Shown: piece after piece, positions 689 to 34,402 of the stretch
How the letters are laid out: the number at the start of each line of letters is the position of its first letter
Position numbering within the stretch: the first letter of the stretch is position 1
Virus record (IMG/VR): IMGVR_UViG_3300017719_000036
Coordinates: 1 to 41,990 of that record
Reading direction: 5' to 3' (one strand)
Length of the DNA: 41,990 nucleotides
Origin: a virus
Program-made: the position numbers and the translations under genes
The notes under the pieces: generated by a model
Databases searched by the model: none
What the model was told of the DNA's origin: nothing
The model's input: only the letters and a program-made list of their open reading frames with translations

Positions 689-2158
689 ATGCCAGCAATT
701 ATTACGAACAAATTTAGAATTCACAATAGTGAGCAATTTCACGAAAGCTTCACAGAAGCTGCAGGAAACACTTACTATCTAGGTATTGGTAGACCTCATC
801 CGTTTACTACGACTACTAGACCTGACGGAAGAACAGAGAATTTAGGTACTGATACAGCACCTATTACTCCTGTTGACGCAATTGCTGAAGAAGCATACAT
901 CTATGATGAATTGTTAGCGGCTAAGAAAATTGGCGCTTCAGATATATCATTCGTTGTTCCTAGAAGAAACTGGACAACAGGTACTACATATGATGTTTAC
1001 AGACATGACTATGGTAGAAGAGAAACTGGTGGTACTAGTTTAATCACATCAAATTCAGGTGCGACTACTTTGTATGACGCAACTTTCTATGTTAAGACTT
1101 CAGCGAATAGAGTTTATAAATGTTTAGACAATAATGGAAATGCTGCTTCTACGGAAGAACCAACAACAACATCAACAGCAACTCAATCTACAAGTGATGG
1201 TTACAAGTGGAAATTAATGTACACTTTAACTGCTTCGCAACAATCTAACTTTTTATCAACTGACTTTATGGCAGTTGAAACGGATTCAACTGTAAATGGT
1301 GACGCCGTTGACGGTAAGATTGATATTTGTTTAGTTAAGGCTGCAGGTACAGGTGGTACAGCAGGTACACACACAAATATTCCTATAAGAGGAGATGGTT
1401 CAAACGGAAAAGTTTCTGTTACCATTTCAGCTGGTACAATTACAGACATTTCGGTAACTACAGCAGGAACAGATTACACAATTGGTTACATTACAGTTGC
1501 AGATATTAATGCTGCTGGCGGTGGTTCATTAATCAACGCAGAGATTGATGTAATTATAGGACCAAAAGGCGGACACGGATTTAACGCAGTAGAAGAATTA
1601 GGTGGATTCTTTGTTATGTTAAACCAATCACTAGACGGAACAGAATTAGCAAACTCTGGTGACTATACTGCCGAAAACGATTTTAGAAAAATTGTACTAT
1701 TCAGAGACCCCACATCAGCGGGTTCAGCTGCAACAGCAACTACAATGAGAGCAACAACAGCTGTTCATTTTGCAAGTTCACCTACACCAGGTACATTTGT
1801 TGCAGACGAAAATATTACTCAAACTGGCACAGGCGCAACAGGTAAAGTAGTAGAATGGGATAGTGCAAACAGAATTTTATACTTCATTCAAACAAGATTT
1901 GCGAGTGAAGGTGCAGACGCAAACGGAGACAACACATCATTTTCGGGAGCAGGAGTAATCACAGGTTCAACTTCAACTGCTACTGGTACACCATCAACAA
2001 GTACAACTGGAACAATTAATCAAGTATCAATCACAAGTGGGTATTCTGCTAGTGAATTTGACCACGATAGTGGTGATGTTATGTATGTTGAGAACAGAGC
2101 GCCTATCGTTAGGGCGGCTGACCAGACAGAAAACATTAAGTTGATTATAGAATTTTAG
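689..2158 (+). CDS. gp8: Baseplate wedge protein gp8 (T4-like), enlarged
   Basis: Baseplate wedge subunit of contractile-tailed T4-like phages. The N-terminus 'AIITNKFR', then 'GIGRPHP', 'FVVPRRNW' and 'DGYKWKLMYT' follow the order of T4 gp8. The C-terminus 'GDVMYVENRAPIV' plus 'DQTENIKLIIEF' aligns closely with the end of T4 gp8. At 489 aa it is about 150 aa longer than T4 gp8 (334 aa). The extra length is mid-protein: a beta-rich segment near residues 235-297 resembling a repeat in the 1184-aa adhesin, and a threonine/serine-rich stretch near 345-440. An AAGGAAG site precedes the ATG. The 2029-aa structural gene follows after 9 nt, probably co-transcribed. Confidence 0.92.
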   Translation: MPAIITNKFRIHNSEQFHESFTEAAGNTYYLGIGRPHPFTTTTRPDGRTENLGTDTAPITPVDAIAEEAYIYDELLAAKKIGASDISFVVPRRNWTTGTTYDVYRHDYGRRETGGTSLITSNSGATTLYDATFYVKTSANRVYKCLDNNGNAASTEEPTTTSTATQSTSDGYKWKLMYTLTASQQSNFLSTDFMAVETDSTVNGDAVDGKIDICLVKAAGTGGTAGTHTNIPIRGDGSNGKVSVTISAGTITDISVTTAGTDYTIGYITVADINAAGGGSLINAEIDVIIGPKGGHGFNAVEELGGFFVMLNQSLDGTELANSGDYTAENDFRKIVLFRDPTSAGSAATATTMRATTAVHFASSPTPGTFVADENITQTGTGATGKVVEWDSANRILYFIQTRFASEGADANGDNTSFSGAGVITGSTSTATGTPSTSTTGTINQVSITSGYSASEFDHDSGDVMYVENRAPIVRAADQTENIKLIIEF

Positions 2159-9902: not shown

Positions 9903-10352
9903 ATGATTAAATTATTAGAATGTGAAGTTGAAGATTATTCTCGTTATGAAAACAATCAATTAATTTTCCTTAAAGACAGAAAAGACTTTAGAGTAAAAGA
10001 TGAAATGTCTTTTGCCTCATGGTTACAACAATGGCGAAACCAAGATAGTATCAAGGTTGAAGGCCTAGAAGATAATGCTTCTATTGTAGCTAACTTTCCA
10101 TTTTTAAACATCAACAGTATTCATCTTTTTGCAAACTTAAAAGGTGAGTTTAGTTTTCCTAAACATAGTGATGATGTAAATGTATATCTACATATCGTAC
10201 AAGGTAGTAAAAAAATCTATCAATGGGTTGATGATATGAAATACGAAACTTTTATACAAGTCGGGCAATCACATGTTATTAACAGCGGTGTTGAACATGA
10301 GGTTGATAGTGAAAAAAATACATGGGCGTTGAGCGTTGGGTTTAATAGATGA
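9903..10352 (+). CDS. Cupin/JmjC-like Fe(II) oxygenase-like protein
   Basis: 149 aa. The second half reads as a cupin barrel: an H-x-D pair at His88-Asp90 ('FPKHSDDVNVYLHIVQGSKK') and a distal His132 in 'SGVEHEVDSE', at the spacing of the 2-His-1-carboxylate iron site of JmjC/cupin-type 2OG dioxygenases. 'GSKKIYQW' resembles the turn after the first ligand strand. A basic 2OG-binding residue is not obvious. The stop overlaps the start of the radical-SAM gene (ATGA), implying coupled translation and shared function. The oxygenase fold is likely. The substrate is unknown; I infer a peptide or protein of the same island. Confidence 0.6.
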   Translation: MIKLLECEVEDYSRYENNQLIFLKDRKDFRVKDEMSFASWLQQWRNQDSIKVEGLEDNASIVANFPFLNINSIHLFANLKGEFSFPKHSDDVNVYLHIVQGSKKIYQWVDDMKYETFIQVGQSHVINSGVEHEVDSEKNTWALSVGFNR

Positions 10353-11386
10353 ATTGGATGTTTTATGTAAAGACAACTGAAACATGTCAGTTGAATTGTA
10401 AACATTGTTTTACAAATGGTATTAATGGTGCAAAGATATATTTTAATCCAGAGAAGACCATAGATTGGTTTAAAAGATTTAGAGAATATCATGGCGAAAA
10501 TCATCAAGCACATTTTGAGTTTCATGGTGGTGAACCTTTCTTAGCACCAGTTTCGCATATGACGAAAGTATATGAAGAATGTAAAGATTTGTGGAAACAT
10601 TCATCATTCGGTATCACATCAAATTTAGTATTTAAACTTAAACAAGAACATTACGATTTTATTTCTGGTCCCCTTAATAATAGAATGGGAACGAGTTGGG
10701 ATCCTAAAATACGGTTTGCAAATGACAAACAATATATTTTATGGGAAAATAATGTAAGAGATTTAATAGAAAGAGGTACTATAATAAAACTATTTGTATC
10801 AGTAACCAAAGATACAATCAATATAGAACCTATTGAGTTATTAAAGTGGATAAAAAATCTAGGTATTCAAGAGGTATCATTTGAGAGATTAACAGGTAAT
10901 GGTAATGCAAATTTACATCCTGAAATCTTTCCAAGTAATATAGAACAGGATTTATGGTTTCTTAAAATGCACCATCAATCTAAAGAATATAATACTAGAG
11001 ACTGGTTTGAAAATGAATTCCTAGAAGTAATATATGACAAGTTTGAAACAGGTTTTTTAAAGGGTGGTACATTTTGTAGAGATTGTGAACAAAAAATATT
11101 TACAATTAATGCAGATGGAACATTAAGTGGTTGTCCTAATGCAGCTCCAGAGTTTCAGTTTGGTAATATAATACAAGATATAAAATCTCTTATAAATAGT
11201 CCACAAAGAATAGAGAATATTGCTTGTGAGAGGGCACGAAATCCAATATGTTTCGAGTGTCCTGTATTTGAATTTTGTGGTGGTGATTGTCACCAACTAT
11301 CATGGCAAGGCGATATTTGTGGTGCTCCAAAGAGCTTAATGAAGGAATTAAAGGCAGAAAAATATGGCAATATCGAATCCAGTTAG
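10349..11386 (+). CDS. Radical SAM/SPASM-type enzyme
   Basis: 345 aa. The 4Fe-4S/SAM motif is CxxxCxxC at Cys13, Cys17 and Cys20 ('CQLNCKHC'), followed by 'HGGEP' near residues 59-63, the usual SAM-binding glycine motif. The C-terminal third carries many cysteines ('CRDCEQ', 'GCPNAA', 'CFECPVFEFCGGDCH', 'GDICG'), the layout of a SPASM domain holding auxiliary Fe-S clusters, as in peptide-modifying enzymes (sulfatase maturases, RiPP enzymes). It overlaps the oxygenase gene upstream (4 nt) and the glycine-rich protein gene downstream (23 nt). I infer modification of a ribosomally made protein, the best candidates being the next two gene products. The family is firm; the substrate is inference. 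Confidence 0.88.
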   Translation: MNWMFYVKTTETCQLNCKHCFTNGINGAKIYFNPEKTIDWFKRFREYHGENHQAHFEFHGGEPFLAPVSHMTKVYEECKDLWKHSSFGITSNLVFKLKQEHYDFISGPLNNRMGTSWDPKIRFANDKQYILWENNVRDLIERGTIIKLFVSVTKDTINIEPIELLKWIKNLGIQEVSFERLTGNGNANLHPEIFPSNIEQDLWFLKMHHQSKEYNTRDWFENEFLEVIYDKFETGFLKGGTFCRDCEQKIFTINADGTLSGCPNAAPEFQFGNIIQDIKSLINSPQRIENIACERARNPICFECPVFEFCGGDCHQLSWQGDICGAPKSLMKELKAEKYGNIESS

Positions 11387-12290
11387 TACACAAGGTATAG
11401 TTGACAGGTTTGAAGACTTGGTCACAGATGTTGTTAATGCAGGTATAGTTTGGGGTGTAAATAACTTACCTTTTACTGAAATGCCTACTTCTAACTATGC
11501 GTTGGAATCAACTATTCTAGGTCAACAAAATTTAACCTTTGCAGGTACAACTACAACAACTGTACCATCTGGTGCTAATACAATTCACATAATCGCTGCT
11601 GTTGGTGGTGGTTCTGGTGGAGTTATGGGTGCCGAGTATGACAGAGGTGGCGGAGAAAGTGCAGGCGCTGGCGGTGGTTCAGGTGGTTATATTTCTGATA
11701 AAGCTTTCAATGTATCTGCCGGAGAAACAATGACATTTGTTGTAGGTTCTGCTGGTACTGCTGGTTCAGGTAGCGGATATAATACAACTGCTGGAAACGG
11801 TGGTTCAACTACAGCTTCAGGTTCATCAACAGGTGCTTTGTTTACATTAACAGGTGGTGTTGGTGGTTCAGGTACAGGAGGAGCAGTTTCAGGTCCTCTT
11901 CGAACAAACACAGCAAGTTCAGGTGGAACAGCAACGATTTCAGGAACACCATTAACAAGTGGTACATTTGTTGATACAACAGGTGCTTCAAGTAGTATTG
12001 TAAGTTCGTTTGTAAACGGACCTACTTCAACATTTAATGACCATGGTTCAGGTAGTGCAGGTGTAAATCCAGGAAATTGTGGTAGTGATAACTGTACAAT
12101 AACTGGTGGCGCAGGTGCTAGTTCATATGGTTCGGCCGTGAGTGGTGGAATAGGTGGCGTAGCAAGTTCATCTTCAGGTGGAGATGGTACAAGAGGTTCT
12201 GGAGGCGGTGGCGGAGGTGCTCAACACACTACTGCTGGTGGAATAGGCGGAGCAGGAGAAATAAGATACAGATTTTTATTTGTATCATAA
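11364..12290 (+). CDS. Glycine-rich fibre/adhesin-like protein
   Basis: 308 aa. After a short N-terminal region (residues 1-65, 'RFEDLVTDVVNAGIVWG') the protein is Gly/Ser/Thr-rich to its end, with runs such as 'GAGGGSGG' and 'GSGGGGGGA', ending in 'GEIRYRFLFV'. The 'HIIAAVGGGSGG..GAGGGSGGYISD' pattern resembles the glycine-rich domains of the three fibres at 29312-34401. Such domains form polyglycine-II-type sandwiches in some phage adhesins. The start lies inside the end of the radical-SAM gene, which is unusual for a virion protein and links the two. Two cysteines occur in 'NCGSDNC'. It could be an adhesin tip and a substrate of the island enzymes. Confidence 0.65.
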   Translation: MAISNPVSTQGIVDRFEDLVTDVVNAGIVWGVNNLPFTEMPTSNYALESTILGQQNLTFAGTTTTTVPSGANTIHIIAAVGGGSGGVMGAEYDRGGGESAGAGGGSGGYISDKAFNVSAGETMTFVVGSAGTAGSGSGYNTTAGNGGSTTASGSSTGALFTLTGGVGGSGTGGAVSGPLRTNTASSGGTATISGTPLTSGTFVDTTGASSSIVSSFVNGPTSTFNDHGSGSAGVNPGNCGSDNCTITGGAGASSYGSAVSGGIGGVASSSSGGDGTRGSGGGGGGAQHTTAGGIGGAGEIRYRFLFVS

Positions 12291-12293
12291 ATA
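12286..12293 (+). promoter_or_regulatory. Late-promoter-like CATAAATA
   Basis: The octamer overlaps the stop of the glycine-rich gene and lies 17 nt before the ATG of the (CHxS)3-tail gene. It differs from TATAAATA only at the first base. It would allow separate late expression of the putative substrate gene. Confidence 0.45.
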
Positions 12294-12309
12294 GTATAAA
12301 GGTAAATTT

Positions 12310-12732
12310 ATGGCAGTCACAATAGGAATAACAGGTGTAGATATAGCTGAGAGTGGTGATATAATTGAAGCTGATGATATTAGAACAGTTTTAGAAACCG
12401 AGACAGCACTATACACAAATGTTAGAAAACAAAATGCAGTTTTAAATGTCACAGGTGGTGGCGGAAATACAGGTTCAAGACCAACTGCCGGTGTTGTATT
12501 TAATTCAACAGAAATTGCACACTTACGAACAAGTGTAAGGCAAACATTGTCAGCTATTTCAGGTGCAGGTGTCACAACAGGTGATATAGTTAATGATGGT
12601 AATTTAGAAACATATTTTGGCAGAATTGCCACAGAATATAGTAGTCAGGCAAATAATGTGGTCACAGATACAATTGATGTATGCCACGCAAGTTGTCACT
12701 CATCTTGTCATGGAAGTAGAGGTAGAAGATAA
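12310..12732 (+). CDS. Small structural-like protein with C-terminal (CHxS)3-RGRR tail; putative modification substrate
   Basis: 140 aa. Residues 1-122 look like an ordinary small phage virion protein (Thr/Gly/Asn-rich, no cysteine). The last 16 residues are entirely different: Cys125-His-Ala-Ser, Cys129-His-Ser-Ser, Cys133-His-Gly-Ser, then Arg-Gly-Arg-Arg. This is a perfect three-fold CHxS repeat, and it also contains His-x-Ser repeats, the hallmark of HxsA-type substrates of radical-SAM maturases. The gene lies between radical-SAM genes. Its stop overlaps the next start (TAATG). I infer a RiPP-like core region on a virion protein. A metal-binding tip is the main alternative. Confidence 0.6.
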   Translation: MAVTIGITGVDIAESGDIIEADDIRTVLETETALYTNVRKQNAVLNVTGGGGNTGSRPTAGVVFNSTEIAHLRTSVRQTLSAISGAGVTTGDIVNDGNLETYFGRIATEYSSQANNVVTDTIDVCHASCHSSCHGSRGRR

Positions 12733-13406
12733 TGATTATTGAAACTAAAGCGCCAATAGCAATTGACGATTTAAAGAAACATTTTACAGACGAGAATGTA
12801 GAATTTTTAATTGATTATGATAAGTCAGATTTAAAAGGTGAAAAACTATTAACTTATTTAAGTAATTTAGATTTACCTTGTGATTTAAAGAATATGGACA
12901 TGTCATTATTAAAAGACTATTTTCATTCTACATCTTTATTATGTTGCAAAGAATTAGAAGAACAGGCTATTGATGTATTGTTGCAGTTTAAGACAATTGA
13001 TGACTTTGGTCCAGAGGTACAAAAGTTTATTAGTGAAAATTTAGATATTGTTAAAACATGGACAAGTAAACTAGACAGTTTATCATTATACAATATGCAT
13101 ACAATAAATGAACCAAAGTTCAAAGAATATGCAGAGGGTTTTACACATGATGATACAGACGAATTAGAGGGTGTTAATTTTATTAGTGTATTAAAGAATA
13201 CTAGATTTTTCGAGTTTTACAAACATGTTAAGAAAGATGACTTGAAATTCTATACTAAATACTTTAATGAATATATGTTTAGAGGAAAGAATATGTATTC
13301 ATATTGGGCAAATGCAAACAACCCAATGTTTTTATTAACAAGAGAAACGGTTGCCGGCAGACATAAAGATTATATGACTGCTAGAAATAACGAATTAGGA
13401 AAGTAA
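12732..13406 (+). CDS. Protein of unknown function in the modification island
   Basis: 224 aa. The start overlaps the previous stop (TAATG) and the next gene starts immediately after this stop, so the three are very probably co-translated. It appears soluble and acidic, predicted largely helical, without signal peptide or membrane segment. Cysteines occur at 'LPCDL' and 'LLCCKELEE'. No catalytic motif is recognisable. Its fixed place right after the (CHxS)3-tail gene makes a partner role (substrate recognition, chaperone or scaffold) plausible, but this is only inference. Confidence 0.55.
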   Translation: MIIETKAPIAIDDLKKHFTDENVEFLIDYDKSDLKGEKLLTYLSNLDLPCDLKNMDMSLLKDYFHSTSLLCCKELEEQAIDVLLQFKTIDDFGPEVQKFISENLDIVKTWTSKLDSLSLYNMHTINEPKFKEYAEGFTHDDTDELEGVNFISVLKNTRFFEFYKHVKKDDLKFYTKYFNEYMFRGKNMYSYWANANNPMFLLTRETVAGRHKDYMTARNNELGK

Positions 13407-14531
13407 ATGTTTTATCTATTTAAAAAGGTATATCTAGCTAGTGATAGTATCATTGATACATTTAGAGATAGAGTAGTAATCTCTAGTACAAATGGTGTCA
13501 AAGCAAGTCAACATATCGACATGTTTCCAGGTGCTCTTATGGCATGTGGTTCTAGTATCGTAGATGTTATAGGTCCAGGTAAAAATTTCTCAAACTGGTA
13601 TAACTTTTTTAAACAGTTGAACGATAAGACTACTGCTACAGGCAAACAAGTTGTTGTATATTGTGACAACGAAAGTTTAGTTTCAGTATGGATTGCTTAC
13701 ATGAAATATGTATTGGCAAATCCAGATAAAGATACTTGTAAAGCATTATTAGAAAGTCATGTATATAGATATGAAGTTTTTGCAAAAGGTAGATATTCAA
13801 GAAATACTACAAATACAAATATTGCATTTACAATCGAACAAGATAACTTTGATGATGAGTGGGCGGCCATTTCGGCACCTATTGAAGAAGATAGAGCGAA
13901 TTGGTTAGTAATTAATAAAGACCATTTACCAGTTGAATATCTATTAGCAACATATCTAAAAGATGGTACTTATAAAGATGAATTAAAAGGCCAACTTAAA
14001 AAACTATACAAGAAAGATTTAGAAAAGTTCTTGTTAGAATTAAAAGAAATATTCTATACACATTTAACAACTTCAAGTTTACCAGCAAGTTTAAGTCTAG
14101 CAAAAACATATACATTTGAGAATGCTAGAGAAATAGAAGATGATACAACGACATACGGTGAGTTATTTAATAATCGTAGATATTGGATGTATCCATATAT
14201 GAATTATGCTTCATCTGGTAAAAACATTAACTTTGATAATATTACTTCAACAGATATAACAAACTTAAAAGCTTTCGCAGACAAAGCTGAGGACGCATTT
14301 GCTGAATTTACTTCACTATCAGAAAGTGATAAATTAGATAAAATAGCAATTGCCAACGGAGAATTTACAGACGCTTTACTGACTACACTTATAGATGATG
14401 AAGCTGCATATGCTAATCAATCAGGTTCTTTTTCTTCAATAGATTTAGAAACTGTAAATCATTATTTTGTAGGTGCTATATTGTCTAATAAGTCAGACAA
14501 TGCATTTTTGGGTAAATACTCTATAACATAA
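13407..14531 (+). CDS. Protein of unknown function in the modification island
   Basis: 374 aa, starting directly after the preceding stop. The N-terminal ~130 residues look like an alpha/beta domain ('DRVVISSTNGVKASQHIDMF', 'KQVVVYCDNESLVSVWIAYM'), the second half is mainly helical with Lys/Glu-rich segments ('KGQLKKLYKKDLEKFLLELK'), and the C-terminal part is acidic and Ser/Thr-rich. I do not recognise a family. No Cys clusters, no HxD/H triad and no membrane segment are seen. Operon position between the putative substrate and two radical-SAM genes suggests a dedicated partner of the modification pathway. Confidence 0.55.
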   Translation: MFYLFKKVYLASDSIIDTFRDRVVISSTNGVKASQHIDMFPGALMACGSSIVDVIGPGKNFSNWYNFFKQLNDKTTATGKQVVVYCDNESLVSVWIAYMKYVLANPDKDTCKALLESHVYRYEVFAKGRYSRNTTNTNIAFTIEQDNFDDEWAAISAPIEEDRANWLVINKDHLPVEYLLATYLKDGTYKDELKGQLKKLYKKDLEKFLLELKEIFYTHLTTSSLPASLSLAKTYTFENAREIEDDTTTYGELFNNRRYWMYPYMNYASSGKNINFDNITSTDITNLKAFADKAEDAFAEFTSLSESDKLDKIAIANGEFTDALLTTLIDDEAAYANQSGSFSSIDLETVNHYFVGAILSNKSDNAFLGKYSIT

Positions 14532-14532
14532 T

Positions 14533-14537
14533 GAGGA
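14533..14537 (+). promoter_or_regulatory. Ribosome-binding site supporting a GTG start
   Basis: GAGGA lies 7 nt before the GTG at 14545. No in-frame ATG occurs nearby, so this site fixes the unusual GTG start of the radical-SAM gene. Confidence 0.55.
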
Positions 14538-14544
14538 AATATTT

Positions 14545-15576
14545 GTGTCATTTTATGATGTCATTGACAACAAGGTTGTTGATTATTGCGAGATAGTAAC
14601 CTGTCTCTTTGAACATTGCAATTTAAATTGTATTTTTTGCCCACAAGACCATAACAGTATTGTTGGTAGTTCAAGAAAAGAAATACTAGACAAAGCTCAA
14701 ACAATATCACACTACATTAATAATAATACCAGGTCGACAGATTTTTCTGTTCATATCATGGGTGGTGAATTGTTTTCCGATTATTGGTTGCAACAAAATT
14801 ATATACCAATATACACCAAGTTTATTAAGTTAATACGAAATAAAGTTAAGCCAGAAAAAAATGTTATTTTTAACTTTGTCAGTAATCTAGTATTTGAAAA
14901 TCACCATTTAGTCAGAGAATTTTTAGACGCAAACGATTTAAAGATATCTATATCTTACGACCCACACGGCCGTTTCAATTCATATAATAGTACACTATTC
15001 AAACAAAATGTCGAAAGATTTAAAGACAGAATTAGAATGGTATCATGTGTACAAACATATCAAAACATCAAAGCAATAAAACATGGTGATGAATACTTTG
15101 ATTACCTTTACAGTTTATTTCCAGTAGATTGGGACCATTTATTACCTAGTACAGGTAAAAAATCAGACTTGGCGATTATGCCAAGAGAGAGTGAAGTTTT
15201 AGCCTTTTATAAAATATTAATTGACAAGTATCCCAAGTGTAGAAATATAGAACATTTTACAAATGGTAAGTCAGAAAATAAAATGACATGTACGAGAGGT
15301 AACAGTCTAACAATTATGCCAGACGGTACGATACCTACAGGTTGTTCAGGTTCAGTTTTATTAAAAGAATACAACACCGAAGATTTGGGTGGTACAAAGA
15401 TAATGGAGAATTGGGTAAACAAATATAATTGTTTTGAATGTGATTATTTCAAAAGATGTCCAATGTCTTGTTTCATCAAATCAGATTTTAAACATTTAGA
15501 AGACGATTTACCTGATTGCGCTTTCAGATTGGCATTCAAATATAGTGATGAAAAAATTAAACATAGCCTTCGTTAA
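14545..15576 (+). CDS. Radical SAM enzyme with C-terminal SPASM/twitch-like cysteines
   Basis: 343 aa with a GTG start. The CxxxCxxC motif is at Cys25, Cys29 and Cys32 ('CNLNCIFC'), followed by 'HIMGGELF' as the SAM-binding segment. C-terminal cysteines ('CTRGNSLTIMPDGTIPTGC', 'CFECDYFKRCPMSC', 'PDCAF') indicate an auxiliary cluster domain, as in peptide-modifying radical-SAM enzymes. The 3' end overlaps the B12-type radical-SAM gene by about 29 nt, indicating coupled expression. Sequence outside the motifs differs from the enzyme at 10349, so a different bond or substrate site is likely. Substrate unknown. Confidence 0.85.
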   Translation: MSFYDVIDNKVVDYCEIVTCLFEHCNLNCIFCPQDHNSIVGSSRKEILDKAQTISHYINNNTRSTDFSVHIMGGELFSDYWLQQNYIPIYTKFIKLIRNKVKPEKNVIFNFVSNLVFENHHLVREFLDANDLKISISYDPHGRFNSYNSTLFKQNVERFKDRIRMVSCVQTYQNIKAIKHGDEYFDYLYSLFPVDWDHLLPSTGKKSDLAIMPRESEVLAFYKILIDKYPKCRNIEHFTNGKSENKMTCTRGNSLTIMPDGTIPTGCSGSVLLKEYNTEDLGGTKIMENWVNKYNCFECDYFKRCPMSCFIKSDFKHLEDDLPDCAFRLAFKYSDEKIKHSLR

Positions 15577-17251
15577 TCCACCACACGCTGATTGGTCATT
15601 AGCTAATAATATGACCTATCTGATGGTACAAAGCCATTATAACCTAGTTGGTAGGTATAAGGCAAGCGTGAATTGGATAGAAGCGCCATTTAAATTTAAC
15701 AAATATACAACGATTGAGGAATTATATGAAGACATTAGTAAAACAAATAAACCAGATATTGTTATGTTTAGTTCTTATAGCTGGAATTTTCCTATTATTG
15801 ACAGCCTTGCTGAATATTGCAAACAACAAAATCCCAAAACAATCACAGTTGTTGGCGGACCCCACATTGGCCTTTATGAAAATGAATTATTAGAAGAAAG
15901 AAAAAGAATATACGATTTTATTTGTCAACCTACAAAACCTGGCGAACCATACATGGAAGATTTAATCAATAGTTGGTTTGAAAATGATGGTAAACCTGTT
16001 GTAGAAGATATTAGTTGGGAGATGAGAAGTCTAAAGGCAACAAAACATAATATTAATACAGACGCTTCTATTTACGAAGAACACCATGAGTACCTCAAAA
16101 AAACTTTAGATTACGCTAAAGCAAATAAAATGGAACCCTTTATGATATTAGAAACGACCAGAGGTTGTCCTTACAAATGTGTATATTGTGAATGGGGTGG
16201 TGGCACAGATACAAAGATTATTAAGAAAGATATTGAGTTAGTCAAAAGAGATATAGACTGGATTAAAAAGGCAGGTTATAGAGACGCATACTTAACAGAC
16301 GCAAACTTTGGTGCCTTTGAACAAAGAGATTTAGATATATTCGCCTATGCGTGGGGTAAGAATTTTAATTTAACAGATATTTCTACAATGAAGTCGCCAA
16401 GTTTAGAAAGGCGAAAACGATTGATAGATAAATGGTTTGAAATTGTTGGTGCAGGACCAGAAAAACATAGTAAGTCCGAGGGAGGTACCGATATGTGGGG
16501 AGATACACAGTATGTATCGGTAGTGCCAACAGTTTCAATACAATCTATTAGTGAAGAAGCTATGAAAGTATCTAAAAGAAAAGACTTATCATGTAAAGAT
16601 AAATTAGAATTAAGTAGGCATATTGAAAAAAGATGTAGAGAAGAGGGGTTTCCAGTACCAGCATTAGAATTAATTTTAGCTATGCCTGGTAGTACACTTG
16701 AAGATTTTTATGATGAGGTAGAAGTAATATGGAATTTTAAAGCATGGTCTAGTTTCAGACATGATTATATGTTTTTACCAGATAGTGAATTAAGTAATCC
16801 AAAATATATTAAAGAATATGATATTGAAACAGTAGAAGTATATTCTGATATTATAGACGAAGATGGTTCTGATAATTGGAACAGTTTGTATAAAAACAAA
16901 AAGACTACATTTAGAACAATGAGGTCTTGTTATTCTTATACAGTAGAAGATATGAAAGAGATGTGGTTTATGAATAATGCAGCTAATTATTTGTTAAGAA
17001 ATTTTTATGAGGGTATCAAAGAATATTGTAAACCACAAGAGATGGCCAAAGAGTGTTATAAAGTTATTAAAACACTACCAGAATTTGAACCTATTAGAGA
17101 AGAGATTGATGATATATTCAATCCTAACACACCCGCCAGGTCAATTAGAACATTGAATGGTGAATTTAGAGTAAAGGTAATTGATAGAATGTTAGAAGAA
17201 AATATGACGATAATTAAATCGGAAGTCATGTCCAAGTTGTTGAATAAATAG
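15548..17251 (+). CDS. Radical SAM enzyme with B12-binding-like N-terminal domain
   Basis: 567 aa from ATG at 15548 (GTG at 15545 is an alternative). Residues ~1-150 have the Rossmann-like pattern of cobalamin-binding domains: 'KLNIAFVNPP' strand, 'PDIVMFSSYSWNFP' and 'TITVVGGPHIGLYENELL'. The DxHxxG base-off motif is absent, as in many B12 radical-SAM enzymes. The cluster motif is Cys207, Cys211, Cys214 ('TTRGCPYKCVYCEWGGG'). A B12-type radical SAM next to SPASM-type enzymes is known from RiPP pathways, where it C-methylates peptides (PoyB/PoyC type). Other reactions are possible. Residues ~425-565 form a long helical extension of unknown role. Confidence 0.82.
   Translation: MKKLNIAFVNPPHADWSLANNMTYLMVQSHYNLVGRYKASVNWIEAPFKFNKYTTIEELYEDISKTNKPDIVMFSSYSWNFPIIDSLAEYCKQQNPKTITVVGGPHIGLYENELLEERKRIYDFICQPTKPGEPYMEDLINSWFENDGKPVVEDISWEMRSLKATKHNINTDASIYEEHHEYLKKTLDYAKANKMEPFMILETTRGCPYKCVYCEWGGGTDTKIIKKDIELVKRDIDWIKKAGYRDAYLTDANFGAFEQRDLDIFAYAWGKNFNLTDISTMKSPSLERRKRLIDKWFEIVGAGPEKHSKSEGGTDMWGDTQYVSVVPTVSIQSISEEAMKVSKRKDLSCKDKLELSRHIEKRCREEGFPVPALELILAMPGSTLEDFYDEVEVIWNFKAWSSFRHDYMFLPDSELSNPKYIKEYDIETVEVYSDIIDEDGSDNWNSLYKNKKTTFRTMRSCYSYTVEDMKEMWFMNNAANYLLRNFYEGIKEYCKPQEMAKECYKVIKTLPEFEPIREEIDDIFNPNTPARSIRTLNGEFRVKVIDRMLEENMTIIKSEVMSKLLNK
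17243..17250 (+). promoter_or_regulatory. Late-promoter-like AATAAATA
   Basis: The octamer overlaps the stop of the B12-type gene and ends only 6 nt before the next ATG. Transcripts would be nearly leaderless, so function is doubtful and the match may be due to A+T-rich codons. Confidence 0.25.
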
Positions 17252-17255
17252 TAAT

Positions 17256-17753
17256 ATGATTGATGATGTAAACATAAAAGGTTATGTGAAGTTGTATGAA
17301 CCAGGTATATCAGAGTTGGTAAACCTTGATGAACATACACTCTTAAACACCGAAGAAAGACAACGAGATAATGGAGAGAAAGATGTAAATCCTTTCTTAC
17401 ATCAAAAGTTGACAGTTGTTGGTAAATATCTACATGAGAAGTTTATCAAACCAAAATATGCTAATTCAGACTATATGTATTACAATGTATGGGACGGAGT
17501 TGATAAAGATAATCAAGGTTGGCATACAGACTTTATGGAAGGATATGATTTGTTTTTCTTATATTATTTTGACACAGCAAATGAAGATACTGGTGGTCAA
17601 ATAGAGTTTAAATGGCAAGACGGTGAAGAGAAATATTATCCTCAATCAGGTGATTTATTTTTAGTATCTAACAAAAGAGGATATTGGCACAAAGCAGGCT
17701 CTACGAATATTACAAGAAGAGTTGCTAGTTTCAATTTTAAAACAAATGAGTAA
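17256..17753 (+). CDS. Fe(II)/2-oxoglutarate-dependent oxygenase
   Basis: 165 aa, a minimal double-stranded beta-helix. The iron triad is His90-x-Asp92 ('GWHTDFMEGYD') with distal His145 ('RGYWHKAGS'), and the 2OG-binding arginine is Arg154 or Arg155 ('NITRRVASFNF'). 'TGGQIEF' and 'PQSGDLFLV' are typical strands between the ligands. It follows the B12 radical-SAM gene after 4 nt and overlaps the next ORF by 8 nt. Enzymes of this size hydroxylate amino-acid side chains or small molecules. In this context a peptide or protein substrate is my inference. Confidence 0.8.
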   Translation: MIDDVNIKGYVKLYEPGISELVNLDEHTLLNTEERQRDNGEKDVNPFLHQKLTVVGKYLHEKFIKPKYANSDYMYYNVWDGVDKDNQGWHTDFMEGYDLFFLYYFDTANEDTGGQIEFKWQDGEEKYYPQSGDLFLVSNKRGYWHKAGSTNITRRVASFNFKTNE

Positions 17754-18084
17754 TTTTGTGACAGACACCGGTAGTAAGTTTTATAAAATGAATGTTGATG
17801 ATTTAATGGTAAAGAAAAAGCGTTTAAGTCTTGAAAGGGATTTATGCGCCGAAATGTATAATTTAATGTTATCAAAAGCAAATGCTAGCATTAATAACGA
17901 AAGTAAATACAAATACTATTTAGATGTAGTAGAAGTAATGGAACCTTATGCTAAAGAAACTAAAGAAGAAATTAGGGAAATTAATCGTCAAATATGTAAA
18001 CTGGTGGGCAGGGATACACTAAAAGGTACAGTATATAATTTAGAATGTGAGGACAGGTATGGATTATCCAAACCCGAATTATAA
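17746..18084 (+). CDS. Small helical protein of unknown function
   Basis: 112 aa from ATG 17746, overlapping the oxygenase stop by 8 nt and the next oxygenase start by 26 nt. Predicted almost wholly helical and highly charged ('LMVKKKRLSLERDLCAEM', 'KETKEEIREINRQICKLVG'), with amphipathic spacing compatible with a short coiled coil. An earlier ATG at 17722 is possible but would overlap more deeply. No catalytic motif. Sandwiched between two 2OG oxygenases, it may be an adaptor or assembly partner. Confidence 0.5.
   Translation: MSNFVTDTGSKFYKMNVDDLMVKKKRLSLERDLCAEMYNLMLSKANASINNESKYKYYLDVVEVMEPYAKETKEEIREINRQICKLVGRDTLKGTVYNLECEDRYGLSKPEL
18049..18053 (+). promoter_or_regulatory. Ribosome-binding site choosing the 18059 start
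   Basis: GAGGA lies 5 nt upstream of ATG 18059. The in-frame GTG at 18047 has no comparable site, so the downstream ATG is preferred. Confidence 0.5.
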
Positions 18085-18571
18085 TGATTTTTTTCTAAAG
18101 GGTTATGTACATGGTAAATGCTCATTAGATGTAAGTCATTTTGAAGACTACAAATATCCAGACGCAAACGATTCCGAAGCAGATAGTAGACCTAAAGAAG
18201 CAAGGTCAGATTTAACAACTCTACACTTGTTAATAGGCCAAGAATATATTAATAAAATTTTTGGTAGAGATTACATACTAAAAGAAAATGGTATGTGGGA
18301 GGGTGTTGATGATGGTTCTCATATCTGGCACAATGACGCAAACAAAGGTAAAGATTTCAATACCAATTTTTTGATTTATATGGACGACAACGAAGTCGGT
18401 CTTAACAGTATTGGAGTTAGAGATAAGATAGATGAACATGTTATCTTTCCTAACAAATATGATTTTATGTGGTTAAACCAATCTTCAGCATTTGAACATA
18501 AAGCCGCCCACAACGGTGGTCGAAGAAGAGTGTTGTCATTTGAGTATAAGGTATATGGACTTAATAATTAA
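18059..18571 (+). CDS. Fe(II)/2-oxoglutarate-dependent oxygenase-like protein
   Basis: 170 aa. Ligand pattern: His91-Asn-Asp93 ('HIWHNDANKGKD'), distal His147 ('SSAFEHKAAHN') and an Arg155-157 cluster ('GGRRRVLSFEY') for 2OG. 'NFLIYMDD' and 'YDFMWLNQ' are the intervening strands. Weak overall similarity to the 17256 protein (same motif order and length) suggests distant paralogues. It overlaps the radical-SAM gene downstream by 17 nt. Substrate unknown, inferred to be shared with neighbouring enzymes. Confidence 0.72.
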   Translation: MDYPNPNYNDFFLKGYVHGKCSLDVSHFEDYKYPDANDSEADSRPKEARSDLTTLHLLIGQEYINKIFGRDYILKENGMWEGVDDGSHIWHNDANKGKDFNTNFLIYMDDNEVGLNSIGVRDKIDEHVIFPNKYDFMWLNQSSAFEHKAAHNGGRRRVLSFEYKVYGLNN

Positions 18572-19640
18572 ACCAACTGAATTATGTAATTTTAAATGTT
18601 CTTTCTGTTCTAGTACAAAGATTGCTGAACACAAGAAAGATATATTATCACACGATTACATATTTAAATTCTTAAAAAGATATCCAGATACAAATACAAT
18701 AATTGTAAATGGCGGTGACCCATTGATGATGGATCCTGATTACTATTGGAGAATTATAGAACATTTAAATGAAAATGATTATAAAGCAAGTATATCATTA
18801 ACAACAAACTTATGGCCATTTCTAGTAAAACCTAAAAAATGGAAAGACTTGTTTAATGATGACAGAGTAGGTGTCACAACATCTTTTCAATATGGTGGTG
18901 GTAGATTAAAAGGTGATTTTTCTGAATTTACGGAAGAAGATTTTTGGAGATGTTCAGACGCTATGTTAGAACATTGTGGTTATAGACCAGATTTTATCGC
19001 AGTTATTGTTCCAGAAAATGCAGACAGAGCTATTAAGAATGTAGAATTGGCATATGAGATGTCGGCAGGATTTAAACCAGTTGATACATTTGAAAATCTA
19101 TCTAAAGATAAGTTAGGTGTTGAGTGTAAATTAAACTATGCAATGGCAAGTGGTGACCAAGAGAAACCTTTTTTAAAAGGAGATATCTACAAAACATATG
19201 TTGAAATATACAACCAAGGTTTAGCGCCATGGGAGTTTAATACAAAACAAATGGCAAAGAGATTAAGAAGAGAACAAACACTTTGTCCTTTACATAGAAC
19301 ATGTGACGCAGGTATCAGAGCATTCAATCCTAGTGGTGATTATTATTCATGTGGTGCATTTGGTGATGACAAAGATAAACCAATTGACTTTGATAGAGAA
19401 ATGAATGGTGAGTTTTTTCTACCATTATCTAAAGACTTAAATTTACACTCTATGAAACAGGCATGTTATACTTGTCCTATGTTTGAGATATGTAATGGTT
19501 GTAGAAAAACAATTAAAGATTATAAAGAACATGGTTTAGTAGAACAACATTGTCGTAAAATGAAAAAGATTGCTCCGGAGATACTTAAAATAAATCGAAT
19601 AAATAGTGATGTGACACCTTATGTGGATGAAAGTATATGA
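18555..19640 (+). CDS. Radical SAM/SPASM-type enzyme
   Basis: 361 aa from ATG 18555, chosen because AAGG lies just upstream and the family start is normally close to the cluster motif. CxxxCxxC is at Cys11, Cys15, Cys18 ('CNFKCSFC'), with 'IIVNGGDPLM' as the SAM-binding segment. C-terminal cysteines ('CPLHRTCDAG', 'YYSCGAFGDD', 'CYTCPMFEICNGCRK', 'EQHC') fit a SPASM domain with auxiliary clusters. It overlaps both flanking 2OG oxygenase genes (17 nt and 4 nt), a strong hint that these enzymes act in one pathway. Substrate not evident. Confidence 0.87.
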   Translation: MDLIIKPTELCNFKCSFCSSTKIAEHKKDILSHDYIFKFLKRYPDTNTIIVNGGDPLMMDPDYYWRIIEHLNENDYKASISLTTNLWPFLVKPKKWKDLFNDDRVGVTTSFQYGGGRLKGDFSEFTEEDFWRCSDAMLEHCGYRPDFIAVIVPENADRAIKNVELAYEMSAGFKPVDTFENLSKDKLGVECKLNYAMASGDQEKPFLKGDIYKTYVEIYNQGLAPWEFNTKQMAKRLRREQTLCPLHRTCDAGIRAFNPSGDYYSCGAFGDDKDKPIDFDREMNGEFFLPLSKDLNLHSMKQACYTCPMFEICNGCRKTIKDYKEHGLVEQHCRKMKKIAPEILKINRINSDVTPYVDESI

Positions 19641-20188
19641 TTAATATTGAATTTGGAACACCTGTATTTGATACAAAGATAAGAAGTCAAGCTGCTAAAG
19701 ATACAGCAGAATACATACTTATCAATTATAATAGTTCTAATAAAAAATCAAGTAATGTAAGTGGTGATAATATATTTGATGATGAGGGTTTAACTAAATT
19801 TAAAAATGATGAAGTTATACCAACATTTAAAAGATATTGTTCATACTTTAATATTGATTTAGATAAGAAAGATTATGATTTGCGAGGTTGGGTTACCGGT
19901 TATGGTACTAACTATGCAATGCCAAAACATAATCATTCAGGTTCACATTTGAGTGCTGTGTTTTATTTGTTATGTGAAGAAACAAATGGTGGAGATTTAG
20001 TCTTACATGACCCACGAACAAATGCGAATAGAGGATATAAAGATGAATTTTTAAATATGTTTCAACCTGTAAGAATGACACCTAAAACAGGACAAGTTAT
20101 TATGTTTCCTAGTTTTATGTATCATAATGTGGAAACATTCAATGGTAAGATGAGGTTGGCAATGCCAGTCGATTTGATTATGTATTAA
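19637..20188 (+). CDS. Putative 2OG-Fe(II) oxygenase (TIGR02466-like)
   Basis: 183 aa. The core reads 'MPKHNHSGSHLSAVFYLL', then 'GGDLVLHDPR', 'PKTGQVIMFPSFMYHNVE' and 'MRLAMPVDL', which is the pattern of the 'putative 2OG-Fe(II) oxygenase' family common in cyanophages and marine bacteria. Likely iron ligands are His98/His100, a downstream acidic or His residue, and His163; Arg173 would bind 2OG. It lacks a classical HxD, which is normal for this family. The start overlaps the previous stop (ATGA) and the next radical-SAM gene begins 1 nt later. Confidence 0.75.
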   Translation: MINIEFGTPVFDTKIRSQAAKDTAEYILINYNSSNKKSSNVSGDNIFDDEGLTKFKNDEVIPTFKRYCSYFNIDLDKKDYDLRGWVTGYGTNYAMPKHNHSGSHLSAVFYLLCEETNGGDLVLHDPRTNANRGYKDEFLNMFQPVRMTPKTGQVIMFPSFMYHNVETFNGKMRLAMPVDLIMY

Positions 20189-20189
20189 T

Positions 20190-21134
20190 ATGAAGAAGAT
20201 TACAGTTTCAATCAATCCAAGTTATTTTTGTAATTTTAGATGTAAGTTTTGTTATTTAACACCTGAAGAATTAGGTGACCAAAAAAGAATAGACTTGCGA
20301 GAATTAGATAGATTACTAGATGAAATAACAATGCATAGAGAGATAGATTGGATTGATTTGTACGGCGGGGAGATTGGTGCTTTAAAGAAAAACTTTTTTT
20401 ATGGTATGCGAGATGTTATTAGAAAATGGTATGGTGGGAAAATTAATATCATTTCAAACTTTAGTATGCTACATAAGGGGTTTTTTGAGAAAGACTTTTA
20501 CCTATCGGTAAGTTATGACTTTGAAGCAAGGGAGATGTCTGATAGAGTATATCAGAATATGCTACAAAGTAAAGTGCCAATCGCCGTATTAATTCTTGCT
20601 AGTCAAGATGTGATTGATAAAGATGTTAATGAGATGATTACTATGATGAATGCTTGTAGTAGTATAGAGAGTGTTGAGATAAAACCATATTCTACAAATC
20701 AAGCTAATCAACAAAATGTGACACATAAAGATTTTGAAGAGTTTGTTAAAAAGTGGATAGATAGTGATGTTCCTAAAAGATTTGATTTTATCAATGAAGG
20801 CAGAATAGTAGATAGTTTGAATGGTGATTATAATGCCTTTTCAAATGACCACATTTACATAACACCAAATGGTAAGTTTGGTGTGTTAGAGTTTGATAAA
20901 GATGATAATGAATATTTTAAAGAGTTAGATACATTTCAAGATTATATAAAATGGGCAGATGAGGAACCAATACATAATGTATCAGATATTTGTCGTAAGT
21001 GCGTTTATTATGGTAAGTGTTTAACTGAACATTACAGATATGTGACCGACTTAACACATTCATGTAATGGGTACAAAGGACTATTAGATTGGTATGATGA
21101 AAGACTGGAAAATAAAACAAGAATTATATCATAG
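20190..21134 (+). CDS. Radical SAM enzyme with short C-terminal Cys cluster
   Basis: 314 aa, the smallest radical-SAM protein here. The cluster motif is Cys14, Cys18, Cys21 ('CNFRCKFCY'), followed by 'IDLYGGEIG' as the SAM-binding segment. The C-terminus has 'CRKCVYYGKCLTEHY' and 'HSCNGYKG', enough for one auxiliary cluster (twitch/SPASM-like). It lies 1 nt after the 2OG oxygenase and overlaps the next ORF by about 40 nt. Proposed role: last radical-SAM step of the island. The reaction is unknown. Confidence 0.85.
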   Translation: MKKITVSINPSYFCNFRCKFCYLTPEELGDQKRIDLRELDRLLDEITMHREIDWIDLYGGEIGALKKNFFYGMRDVIRKWYGGKINIISNFSMLHKGFFEKDFYLSVSYDFEAREMSDRVYQNMLQSKVPIAVLILASQDVIDKDVNEMITMMNACSSIESVEIKPYSTNQANQQNVTHKDFEEFVKKWIDSDVPKRFDFINEGRIVDSLNGDYNAFSNDHIYITPNGKFGVLEFDKDDNEYFKELDTFQDYIKWADEEPIHNVSDICRKCVYYGKCLTEHYRYVTDLTHSCNGYKGLLDWYDERLENKTRIIS

Positions 21135-29311: not shown

Positions 29312-30682
29312 ATGGCACAAATAGACTTAGGTAAATTAAAATTAAAAAATCAAGGCACATGGGTTTCAGGCACAACCTATGAAGTAGATGACTTTGTAGT
29401 TTACACCGATTCCGGTGTGACTTCTACATTTATTTACATAAATGCTTCGGCAGCTGCAGGTGAAGTTCCTTCAAGTGGCGGTACAGTAAATAGTTCACAT
29501 TGGCAAATAATGGCCAAAGGTACAGACGCTGTAGGTATGTCTTTTGGTACAACTGAAACAGCAGATTTTACTGCTTCTGGTGCAACAGGATATTTTATAG
29601 ATACAACAGCTGGTGTTATTTCAATGACATTACCTGCTTCTCCTTCAAAAGGTGACCAAATACAGATTATTGACAAAATGAAAACTTTTCATACTAATCA
29701 TTTAAAATTACTTGCAAACGGAAATTATATTCAAGGAGAACCTGATGACTGGTCTTTTGTAAAAAAAGGAACAAATGTTATGCTTACTTATGGTGACGCA
29801 AACATGGGTTGGCAGTTTTCAAGTTTTTCACATGATGACCAAGGTAGTATGAATAACGCTGTAAGTTCAGACATAGGTTCTAAAAGATATATTAGAGGAA
29901 CAAGTGACGCTGAAGAAGTTTACCTAGACGGCGACTATATGGTTCACAAATTTTTATCTTCAGGTACTTTTACAGTACATGAAGTCGGAACGGATTCAGT
30001 ACACGGTGCTGTTGTCAGATACATGATTGTAGGTGGCGGCGGTTCAGGTGGTACTCACCACTCTGGTGGTGGAGGCGCTGGTGCTTTTAGAGACACAGGC
30101 GCATACAATCATACCGTATCTGCTCAAGCATACACAATTACAGTTGGTGCTGGTGGTTCATTGAGAACAAGTGGCGGACATGGTAACAACGGTAGTAGTT
30201 CAACATTTGACAGTATAACCTCAGCAGGTGGCGGAGGCGGTGGCTCTTATAATAATAGAGGAAGAGATGGTGGTTCCGGCGGTGGTGCTGGTCACTCTCA
30301 TACTCATGGCGGTGCTACAGGTCAAGGTTCAGGAACAAGAGGCGGAGACCACAGCTCACACACAATGGGTGGTGGCGGAGGTTCTACACATAGAGGCGGT
30401 GACGCTTATGGCGGAGGACACCAAGGTGGCTCAGGCGGTTCTGGAAATAGTTCAGATATTACAGGAAAACAATCACACTTTTCAGGTGGCGGTGGTGCTG
30501 GAACACATCAACACGGTGGTGGCGGAGGCGGAGGTCTCGGCGGCGGCGGTGAAGGACAAGGTGGTTCTGCTAGAGATAATTCAGGCGGCGGCGGAGGTGG
30601 AACAGACGGTTCATCAGGTCAAGCTAATTATGGTGGCGCTGGCGGTTCAGGTATCGTTGTAATAAGATATAAGGTAAGATAA
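29312..30682 (+). CDS. Glycine/histidine-rich fibre, module copy 1
   Basis: 456 aa. Residues 1-70: CBM-like repeat ('GKLKLKNQGTWVSGTTYEVDDFVVY'). Residues ~75-180: a beta domain ('ATGYFIDTTAGVISMTLPASPSKGDQIQIID' to 'GWQFSS') also found at the end of the 1184-aa adhesin. Residues ~195-456: an 'AEEVYLDGDYMVHKFLSSGTFTV' linker, then a glycine-rich domain with many histidines, including HxHxH at His328-His332, ending 'GIVVIRYK'. Architecture and tandem paralogues indicate a host-recognition adhesin. The 151-aa partner starts 1 nt downstream. Confidence 0.75.
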   Translation: MAQIDLGKLKLKNQGTWVSGTTYEVDDFVVYTDSGVTSTFIYINASAAAGEVPSSGGTVNSSHWQIMAKGTDAVGMSFGTTETADFTASGATGYFIDTTAGVISMTLPASPSKGDQIQIIDKMKTFHTNHLKLLANGNYIQGEPDDWSFVKKGTNVMLTYGDANMGWQFSSFSHDDQGSMNNAVSSDIGSKRYIRGTSDAEEVYLDGDYMVHKFLSSGTFTVHEVGTDSVHGAVVRYMIVGGGGSGGTHHSGGGGAGAFRDTGAYNHTVSAQAYTITVGAGGSLRTSGGHGNNGSSSTFDSITSAGGGGGGSYNNRGRDGGSGGGAGHSHTHGGATGQGSGTRGGDHSSHTMGGGGGSTHRGGDAYGGGHQGGSGGSGNSSDITGKQSHFSGGGGAGTHQHGGGGGGGLGGGGEGQGGSARDNSGGGGGGTDGSSGQANYGGAGGSGIVVIRYKVR

Positions 30683-30683
30683 T

Positions 30684-31139
30684 ATGCATGTAGGAAAAAT
30701 AGATAGTAATAATTTAGTTGTAGAAACTTTAATTATAAAACTTGAAAAAATAATTTCAAATAACGGAACAGTTACCGAAGCTTCTTGTCAAGCTTGGTGT
30801 GCTCCAAGATTTGGTGCAGATTTCACTTATATTCCTGAAAGTATTTCAAATAATTTACCAAATATTGGAATGACATTTGATAGAGCAAAGATGGCATTTC
30901 ACGAAGGATTACCTTTAGATATTGAAGGTAATGAATGTACTTCATGGGTATGGAATACTGAACATTTTAAATTTCATGCTCCACATATTCACGGTAGTGC
31001 AGCTGGCAAAAAACAAATTTTATGGAGAGAAAGTAATTCAAGATGGTATTGTAGAGAAAAAGGTGAAACAGACGGAAACTATTTCACTTGGAACACAACA
31101 TCATCAACATGGGAAGATACTGGCTCAGCAACATTATAG
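30684..31139 (+). CDS. Small partner of glycine-rich fibre, copy 1
   Basis: 151 aa. Pattern: 'VGKIDSNNLVVETLI' N-terminal strand, then 'LPNIGMTFDRAKMAFHEGLP', 'CTSWVWNTEHFKFHAPHIHG' and a C-terminal 'RWYCREKGETDGNYFTWNTTSSTWE' repeat. The same order recurs in the partner proteins at 32541 and 34403. The Trp/Tyr-rich C-terminus resembles small fibre-partner proteins ('W.W......PP.......W') of marine phages. It could be a fibre-tip adhesin, hinge or chaperone; no direct evidence chooses between them. Confidence 0.6.
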   Translation: MHVGKIDSNNLVVETLIIKLEKIISNNGTVTEASCQAWCAPRFGADFTYIPESISNNLPNIGMTFDRAKMAFHEGLPLDIEGNECTSWVWNTEHFKFHAPHIHGSAAGKKQILWRESNSRWYCREKGETDGNYFTWNTTSSTWEDTGSATL

Positions 31140-31142
31140 AAA

Positions 31143-31150
31143 GATAAATA
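31143..31150 (+). promoter_or_regulatory. Late-promoter-like GATAAATA
   Basis: One mismatch to TATAAATA, between module 1 and module 2, followed by GGATAACAA and the ATG at 31160. It could allow module-specific late expression. Confidence 0.4.
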
Positions 31151-31159
31151 GGATAACAA

Positions 31160-32539: not shown

Positions 32540-32540
32540 T

Positions 32541-32999: not shown

Positions 33000-33009
33000 G
33001 GAATAAAAA

Positions 33010-34401: not shown

Positions 34402-34402
34402 A

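Follow-up and report, generated by a model that had tools for sequence, protein, structure and literature searches.

What is the function of a threefold Cys-His-x-Ser repeat placed at the extreme C-terminus of a small phage protein and encoded next to several radical-SAM genes? The question was raised by a linear IMG/VR virus record of 41,990 bases (IMGVR_UViG_3300017719_000036), called here the window, in which T4-like tail genes are present. A preliminary description of this DNA reported the series CHAS-CHSS-CHGS followed by RGRR, and our reading of the ORF agrees: the series occupies residues 125-140 of a 140-aa protein which contains no other Cys, and whose C-terminus reads TDTIDVCHASCHSSCHGSRGRR directly before the stop codon. 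In the window alone, two overlapping CHxxCH matches are found against 0.16 expected from dinucleotide shuffling. The gene is situated inside the tail and host-recognition structural region, flanked by gp8-like and gp15-like genes with tail-fibre families between them, and belongs to an island (9903-21134; Table 1). In pelagimyophages the host-recognition cluster is likewise placed inside the structural region (PMC7029224) and the window island resembles this cluster.

Table 1. Positions of the island genes, of the tag and of the neighboring structural and oxidative genes in the window, with profile scores and occurrence in related loci
Feature	Position	Strand	Observation
gp8-type baseplate wedge protein	689-2155		flanks the island
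cupin-like protein (og9903)	9903-10352	+	Cupin_2 18.4 bits, below cut-off; 47/49 full-length related loci
rsA, radical-SAM/SPASM enzyme	10349-11386	+	phrog_1802 E 1.5e-65; SPASM TIGR04085 35.2 bits (cut-off 27)
glycine-rich protein	11364-12290	+	Gly_rich_2 41.5 bits (cut-off 24.3)
tag protein, 140 aa	12310-12732	+	folded body and C-terminal tag; probable virion/fibre-type protein
tag CHASCHSSCHGSRGRR	12682-12729	+	residues 125-140 of the tag protein
h12732, conserved partner directly downstream of the tag protein	12732-13406	+	phrog_20767; 80/80 and 49/49 related loci
h13407, second conserved partner	13407-14531	+	49/49 full-length loci
rsB, radical-SAM enzyme	14545-15576	+	phrog_1802 E 6e-32; 47/49 loci
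rsC, B12-binding and radical-SAM protein	15545-17251	+	B12-binding 42.8 bits and Radical_SAM 31 bits, both above cut-off; 16/49 loci
2OG-Fe(II) oxygenase-like protein (og17256)	17256-17753	+	2OG-FeII_Oxy_3 24.6 bits (cut-off 27); 12/49 loci
h18047, accessory protein, possibly oxygenase-like	18047-18571	+	no Pfam match; 16/49 loci
rsD, radical-SAM enzyme	18492-19640	+	Radical_SAM 36.4 bits (cut-off 29.5); 48/49 loci
2OG-Fe(II) oxygenase (og19637)	19637-20188	+	2OG-FeII_Oxy_5 52.1 bits (cut-off 27); 34/49 loci
rsE, radical-SAM enzyme	20190-21134	+	Radical_SAM 26.8 bits (cut-off 29.5); 39/49 loci
second oxidative gene group	34954-38299		Asp/Arg hydroxylase-like 20.5 bits (under cut-off), flavin tryptophan halogenase 341 bits, 2OG oxygenase 32.5 bits, haem oxygenase 79.6 bits
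head-closure protein	39816-40634
gp15-type tail-sheath stabiliser	40804-41565		flanks the island

Is the tag conserved elsewhere? The pattern CHxxCHxxRGRR-stop, in which two repeats are fixed and the third is not required, identified at least 119 stretches in viral_contigs. A third CH (position -16) is present in all 142 matches with enough upstream sequence and a fourth (-20) in none of them (0/142). The 48-nt tags comprise 118 different sequences and specify 56 different 16-aa peptides, with Cys and His each encoded by either of their two codons and Arg by several. Since synonymous codons are mixed at fixed positions, the tag is conserved at the protein level. The shuffling expectation, together with the third repeat and the codon usage, rules out a chance or low-complexity artefact. 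All three Cys and all three His are invariant over the 169 distinct proteins compared. Ser occupies positions 4, 8 and 12 in 160, 139 and 152 members, and at the end R13 is present in 168, G14 in 162, R15 in 168 and R16 in 169, counts which partly reflect the search patterns used. A second scan left the C-terminal end open (CHxSCHxxCHxx) and gave at least 120 stretches. Of the ORFs in which the motif is preceded by more than 80 aa (35 in all), 29 have R.RR ends (22 RGRR, 5 RSRR, 1 RARR and 1 GRGRR), one ends in I, three have long extensions and two are unrelated. In genome_contigs the first pattern retrieved 23 stretches, 15 of which are true tags. The 16-residue tag is nearly invariant while the protein that carries it diverges, one of the two outcomes envisaged in the preliminary description.

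The tag is closely linked to the genes of the island. HMMs built from the window island genes were applied to 231 loci, 163 with a tag and 68 others. Radical-SAM ORFs were identified in 136 of the 163 tag loci versus 4 of the 68 others, a comparison that ignores kinship among loci and uses HMMs derived from the same loci; the four others (L150, L161, L165 and L217) hold variant tags, which leaves 0/64. The h12732 gene is present in 138/163 tag loci and either marker in 149/163. Most of the 27 tag loci without radical-SAM ORFs belong to a group with tandem tag-protein pairs. A search of whole records covered the 22 records behind 22 of these 27 exceptions and also L058 and L077, leaving out L051, L055, L066, L094 and L103. 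Radical-SAM genes occur elsewhere in 21 of the 22 records, exactly five of them in 14 of 21 virus records, and an rsA orthologue in 18; the four records without rsA are fragments of 18-39 kb.

The linkage holds in the reverse direction. Of the best 80 of 373 rsA loci, 75 are tagged and the remaining 5 end within 300 nt of rsA. All of the best 80 of 165 h12732 loci are tagged, mostly just before h12732. A second, distant rsA set (best 80 of 332, centred on a Pseudomonas jumbo phage) includes 72 tagged loci, 4 truncated loci and 4 with variant tags: CHSNCHINRSRR in L479, CHTSCHSNCNCNRGRR in L518 and longer repeat proteins in L484 and L485. Over both rsA tests every untruncated locus carries a tag or a variant (75/75 and 76/76, or 151/151), in sets that overlap in contigs and in which related contigs were not thinned. 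In the 49 full-length loci of the second set rsA, h12732 and h13407 are each present in 49/49. The tie between the C-terminal tail and radical-SAM genes, first proposed from the window alone, is therefore near-complete: the tail is neither widespread away from such genes nor missing from homologues that keep the island.

In some of these phages (L004, L022, L028 and similar loci) two tagged proteins of 126-140 aa each are encoded in tandem, at a distance from the enzyme genes. In this group a single set of enzymes seems to act on two substrates.

The system is also present in named phages. Searches of 50,697 phage records with h12732 (E limit 0.01), rsA (1e-10), and rsE, rsD and rsB (1e-6) all converge on one set of seven: Pseudomonas phage pPa_SNUABM_DT01, Sinorhizobium phage Phosso, Agrobacterium phage Atu_ph07 (two records) and Burkholderia phages FLC6, FLC8 and SURPRISE13. 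Six of these records, which represent all six phages, were inspected and each encodes the tag; the remaining one (MF403008) duplicates the phage of NC_042013. A tblastn search with the window tag protein (E 10) matched none of the phages, a result explained by the short tag and the divergent body; the four enzymes share 29-62% identity, the substrate body none detectable by BLAST. The named phages share the order cupin, rsA, tag protein, h12732-type and h13407-type partners, rsB, with small swaps. More generally, T4-like marine phages, several jumbo phages and Bdellovibrionota chromosomes carry the same enzymes and tag in a similar gene order. In the Atu_ph07 locus (L236, about 14363-15076) an rsE homologue with 54% identity to the window rsE is annotated as a hypothetical protein.

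Atu_ph07 provides a link to the virion. ESI-MS/MS identified 131 virion proteins of this phage, most of them from three clusters, one of which is CDS 170-215 (PMC6102473). The numbering of the record agrees with that paper for the gp181 baseplate, gp198 portal and gp204 prohead core proteins. The tag protein is gp170, with rsA as gp171 and h12732 as gp169. Since the stated cluster starts at CDS 170, detection of gp170 in the virion is implied, an argument that rests on the cluster boundary given in the paper's text. Together with the position of the gene among tail genes, this suggests that the tag protein is a virion protein of the fibre type.

Tags are not restricted to phages. Eight true tag loci from genome_contigs are named Bdellovibrionaceae, Bacteriovoracaceae/Bacteriovorax or Halobacteriovoraceae. 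On three long contigs (382, 219 and 228 kb) the flanks within 20 kb, 20 proteins scanned in all, include a 3-hydroxyacyl-CoA dehydrogenase, a pyruvate kinase, an ABC transporter, an AMP-binding enzyme and a P-type ATPase, and because of these cellular genes the copies look chromosomal. In a sample of 290 Bdellovibrionota genomes, rsA was identified in 16. The tag pattern missed 8 of the 16, and in 7 of these 8 a variant tag lies close to the same set of genes: YCHGNFPPPCHGSRGRR (three genomes), YCHTNVPTPPPCHASRGRR, YWCHSSHSSHSSHSSRGRR, YCHSNHCSHSNHGSRGRR and VCNSNFICHSNCYTPPPKSRSRR. No tag was seen in the 15 kb read in the eighth (G180), nor on the 7.5-kb contig that carries a second rsA copy in G028. 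The variants share a core of H-x-S/N units and an R[GS]RR end, and Cys is largely lost in the HxS-type tags. No obvious signal peptide was seen by eye in the Bdellovibrionota tag proteins. With no virion known in these bacteria either, a role confined to virions cannot account for all of the tags. On a Halobacteriovoraceae contig (L402, 657-1691) a Peptidase_S74 fibre-type protein (48.9 bits) is encoded beside the system.

Some repeat proteins end in another way. In L161 a Peptidase_S74 chaperone (44.8 bits, cut-off 22) takes the place of RGRR after four repeats, and in L217 a Hint domain (57.8 bits, cut-off 32.1) comes after four CH units. L165 has six repeats, a Pro/Thr linker and then a stretch that is Hint-like by eye, without a Pfam match. 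S74 and Hint domains cut themselves off, so that the repeats would remain on the body, at or near its new C-terminus. The repeat runs preceding these Hint-type stretches are longer than in the tag (six in L165, 1645-2895; four CH units in L217, 1-1248), and where its contig ends L217 seems to enter a second Hint-like start.

Which known systems does this arrangement recall? The island shows two general features of radical-SAM/SPASM peptide maturation, namely CxxxCxxC and SPASM in rsA and a linked, conserved, repetitive substrate region. The rsA gene lies two genes upstream of the tag protein in the window. Its CxxxCxxC motif and C-terminal Cys set are conserved (alignment A2), and this universal radical-SAM partner, with its full SPASM set, is most like peptide crosslinking enzymes in sequence. 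A weak SPASM match is observed in rsD (TIGR04085, 22 bits, cut-off 27), and h13407 has no Pfam or PHROG match. By similarity, rsC resembles C-methyltransferases (103.7 bits against the KedN5 family, cut-off 700) and the 2OG oxygenases resemble hydroxylases; both are variable parts of the system.

In its repeat the tag resembles the His-Xaa-Ser (Hxs) system. Both systems combine H-x-S repeats in a small protein with neighboring radical-SAM/SPASM enzymes, and the tags of two Bdellovibrionota relatives (L435 and L436) are HxS repeats of period 3, like those in the HxsA proteins of G409 and G574. However, the CHxS triplet of the window and the HxS repeats of these relatives stand in a C-terminal tag ending in R.RR, whereas in HxsA the repeats follow a signal-like start and precede a C-terminal domain (three Hxs loci were compared; in the two HxsA proteins read, the HxS repeats lie within the first half). 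The new system has four to five radical-SAM enzymes, two partners and oxygenases, Hxs two radical-SAM enzymes. At curated cut-offs membership is rejected for all four Hxs families. The window tag protein matches no NCBIfam family, HxsA (TIGR03979) included, at E ≤ 0.01. Against HxsB (TIGR03978) rsA scores 34.2 bits (cut-off 370), and this cut-off is reached in 0/9 records of the new system versus three Hxs genomes at 403.8-521.8 bits. Against HxsC (TIGR03977, cut-off 267.9) rsB scores 16.1 and rsD 26.9 bits. HxsD (TIGR03976), a short family, was found in 0/26 records, some of which are fragments; of three Hxs genomes searched likewise, two gave a match to it, with scores below cut-off. The tag system thus resembles Hxs in repeat and enzyme type and is not a member of it, judging from profile scores and gene content; the view of the preliminary description that the protein is an analogue of HxsA, with no HxsD-like gene beside it, stands, and the comparison gains strength from the period-3 repeats of L435 and L436.

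The best NCBIfam match of rsA is PapB (NF047865, 50.5 bits, cut-off 340), DynA scoring 41 bits, also far below cut-off. The alignment with PapB is nearly full length (9-316 on 9-318 of 330), and the Cys of both substrates are repeated with period 4. PapB joins Cys to Asp/Glu in Cys-X3-Asp/Glu motifs (PMC9413430). Acidic residues are by contrast almost absent from the tag: the residues four after each Cys are Cys, Cys and Arg (168/169), so that no Cys-X3-Asp/Glu occurs. Because the PapB score is far under cut-off and the tag lacks the acceptors of PapB, the crosslink chemistry is a guess. Attachment of c-type haem was also considered for the Cys-His pairs. It follows a CxxCH rule and is not favoured here, the spacing in the tag being CxxxCH.

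The body of the tag protein is a well-folded domain of 83 to about 290 residues in the main cluster. A model of a 190-residue relative (L111; alignment A3, 71 sequences) has a mean pLDDT of 88 and a pTM of 0.81. It consists of helices, a long hairpin, a helix and a β strand (167-174). The tag (175-190) projects from this strand and is modelled with low confidence, the last block scoring about 53. Foldseek searches of BFVD with the tag-protein model returned only uncharacterised phage proteins, including one of 296 residues from Atu_ph07, and no PDB chain reached Z ≥ 2. The h12732 model (pLDDT 92) has no PDB match at Foldseek E ≤ 0.001 and a best VIA Z of 4.1 over 50 residues, an absence of matches that does not establish a new fold. 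The tag bodies fall into 10 single-linkage clusters (BLAST, E 1e-3). The idea that they are wholly unrelated is weakened by profile comparison, in which the HxS-type protein of L435 aligns with A3 over 177 columns (98.5%), so that at least part of the bodies form one diverged family. For L430 and L004 the match depends in part on the tag. The window protein is itself unusual: it lacks the N-terminal segment usual in tag proteins, and the segment begins the preceding glycine-rich protein instead (first 43 residues, hhalign to A3, 98.0%, 42 columns). Substrate and N-terminal module seem to be split across two genes.

Taken together, the tag is probably a C-terminal modification tag on a virion fibre-type protein, acted on by a dedicated multi-enzyme set. 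The body would fold and end in a β strand, leaving the 16-residue tag hanging from it. The rsA enzyme foremost, with rsB, rsD, rsE, sometimes rsC, the cupin-like protein and the 2OG oxygenases, would act on the Cys-His-x-Ser repeats, and the universal partners h12732 and h13407 would help this set. Modification would take place in the cytoplasm, before or during tail assembly. Its probable products are thioether or other carbon-linked crosslinks together with hydroxyl or methyl groups. The terminal R[G/S]RR may serve as a recognition or end signal, and the tip so hardened may serve in adsorption or host-surface recognition.

A broader reading joins the phages and some Bdellovibrionota in a shared pathway in which Cys-His-x-Ser or His-x-Ser fibre tips become a crosslinked, hyper-modified cap for recognition of target cells, exposed either as an R.RR tail or after S74/Hint self-cleavage. 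Four to five radical-SAM enzymes, oxygenases and the two partner proteins would make up this pathway, which would amount to RiPP-like chemistry on a virion protein. We put this reading forward tentatively, considering it somewhat more likely to be wrong than right. Bdellovibrio MAT fibres are phage-fibre-like adhesins with S74 self-cleavage (PMC10769870), and a CHxS protein with S74 (L161) and the S74 protein adjoining the system in L402 recall them. However, the tag is not described for MAT fibres in the available text of that study, and only 16/290 genomes of the phylum carry rsA.

The spacing of the repeat might instead reflect metal binding. Known phage fibres and spikes bind iron at their tips through HxH sites, and a trimer of the tag might in a similar way bind Fe or Zn through its Cys and His in stacked rungs, the enzymes modifying something else or only tuning the ligands. 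The invariant Cys and His at fixed spacing, the position of the tag at the extreme C-terminus after a β strand in the L111 model and the fibre-type context, including the S74 variant, are all compatible with such a tip. It nevertheless leaves unexplained both the near-complete linkage to radical-SAM enzymes and two partners and the invariant R.RR end, and Cys is largely lost in the HxS-type tags. We regard it as unlikely, although it is the best of the alternatives to an enzymatically modified tag.

The linkage also bears on how phage radical-SAM clusters have been read. Such clusters have been noted since at least 2010 and numerous radical-SAM genes in a phage were called highly unusual (PMC12390700, PMC2853527). 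Those of Campylobacter phages CP220/CPt10, Aeromonas phage 332-Vera and pelagimyophages resemble the present island in having several such genes per module, sometimes among structural genes. They differ in that no protein substrate is proposed in the available text of these reports. The Campylobacter clusters are not shown to be tag systems, since rsA, rsB, rsD and rsE matched no Campylobacter phage among the 50,697 phage records. The published interpretations are metabolic (PMC2853527) or leave the clusters unexplained (PMC12390700), and two pelagimyophage islands differ by radical-SAM cassettes (PMC7029224). This would suit auxiliary metabolic genes acting in host metabolism or surface chemistry, with the tag as a non-covalent assembly or targeting signal that merely travels with them in a host-recognition island. 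We consider this improbable, a shade more so than metal binding: the same enzymes and tag recur in similar order across T4-like marine phages and several jumbo phages and again on Bdellovibrionota chromosomes, and no untruncated rsA locus in the two overlapping reverse tests lacks a tag or variant.

Release of the tag as a small free peptide, a toxin or signal cut from a precursor, is very improbable: although RiPP precursors usually carry a short, conserved C-terminal region behind a variable body and self-cleaving domains follow the repeats in a few cases, the 11 neighbour families profiled include no protease or exporter, the well-folded body is structured unlike a mere leader, and S74/Hint cleavage would keep the repeats on the body.

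A literature search, mainly of open-access papers and without bioRxiv preprints, found no description of the tag. A large group of phage radical-SAM clusters now has a candidate protein substrate in these 16 residues. If the modification-tag reading is correct, they represent a virus-encoded route to exotic protein chemistry on a part of the virion, testable in cultured jumbo phages, and tag and enzymes could become a genetically encoded C-terminal modification handle. The uncharacterised Hxs systems also gain a relative with a likely structural role.

Two further regions of the window deserve mention. Each of three consecutive large Gly/His-rich fibre-like proteins (starting at 29312, 31160 and 33010, within 29312-34918) precedes a small one (about 150-170 aa; 30684, 32541 and 34403), and together they look like triplicated pairs of adhesin and partner. 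Next to them lies the second oxidative gene group (Table 1). A halogenase beside fibre genes is odd, and it might also act on virion proteins.
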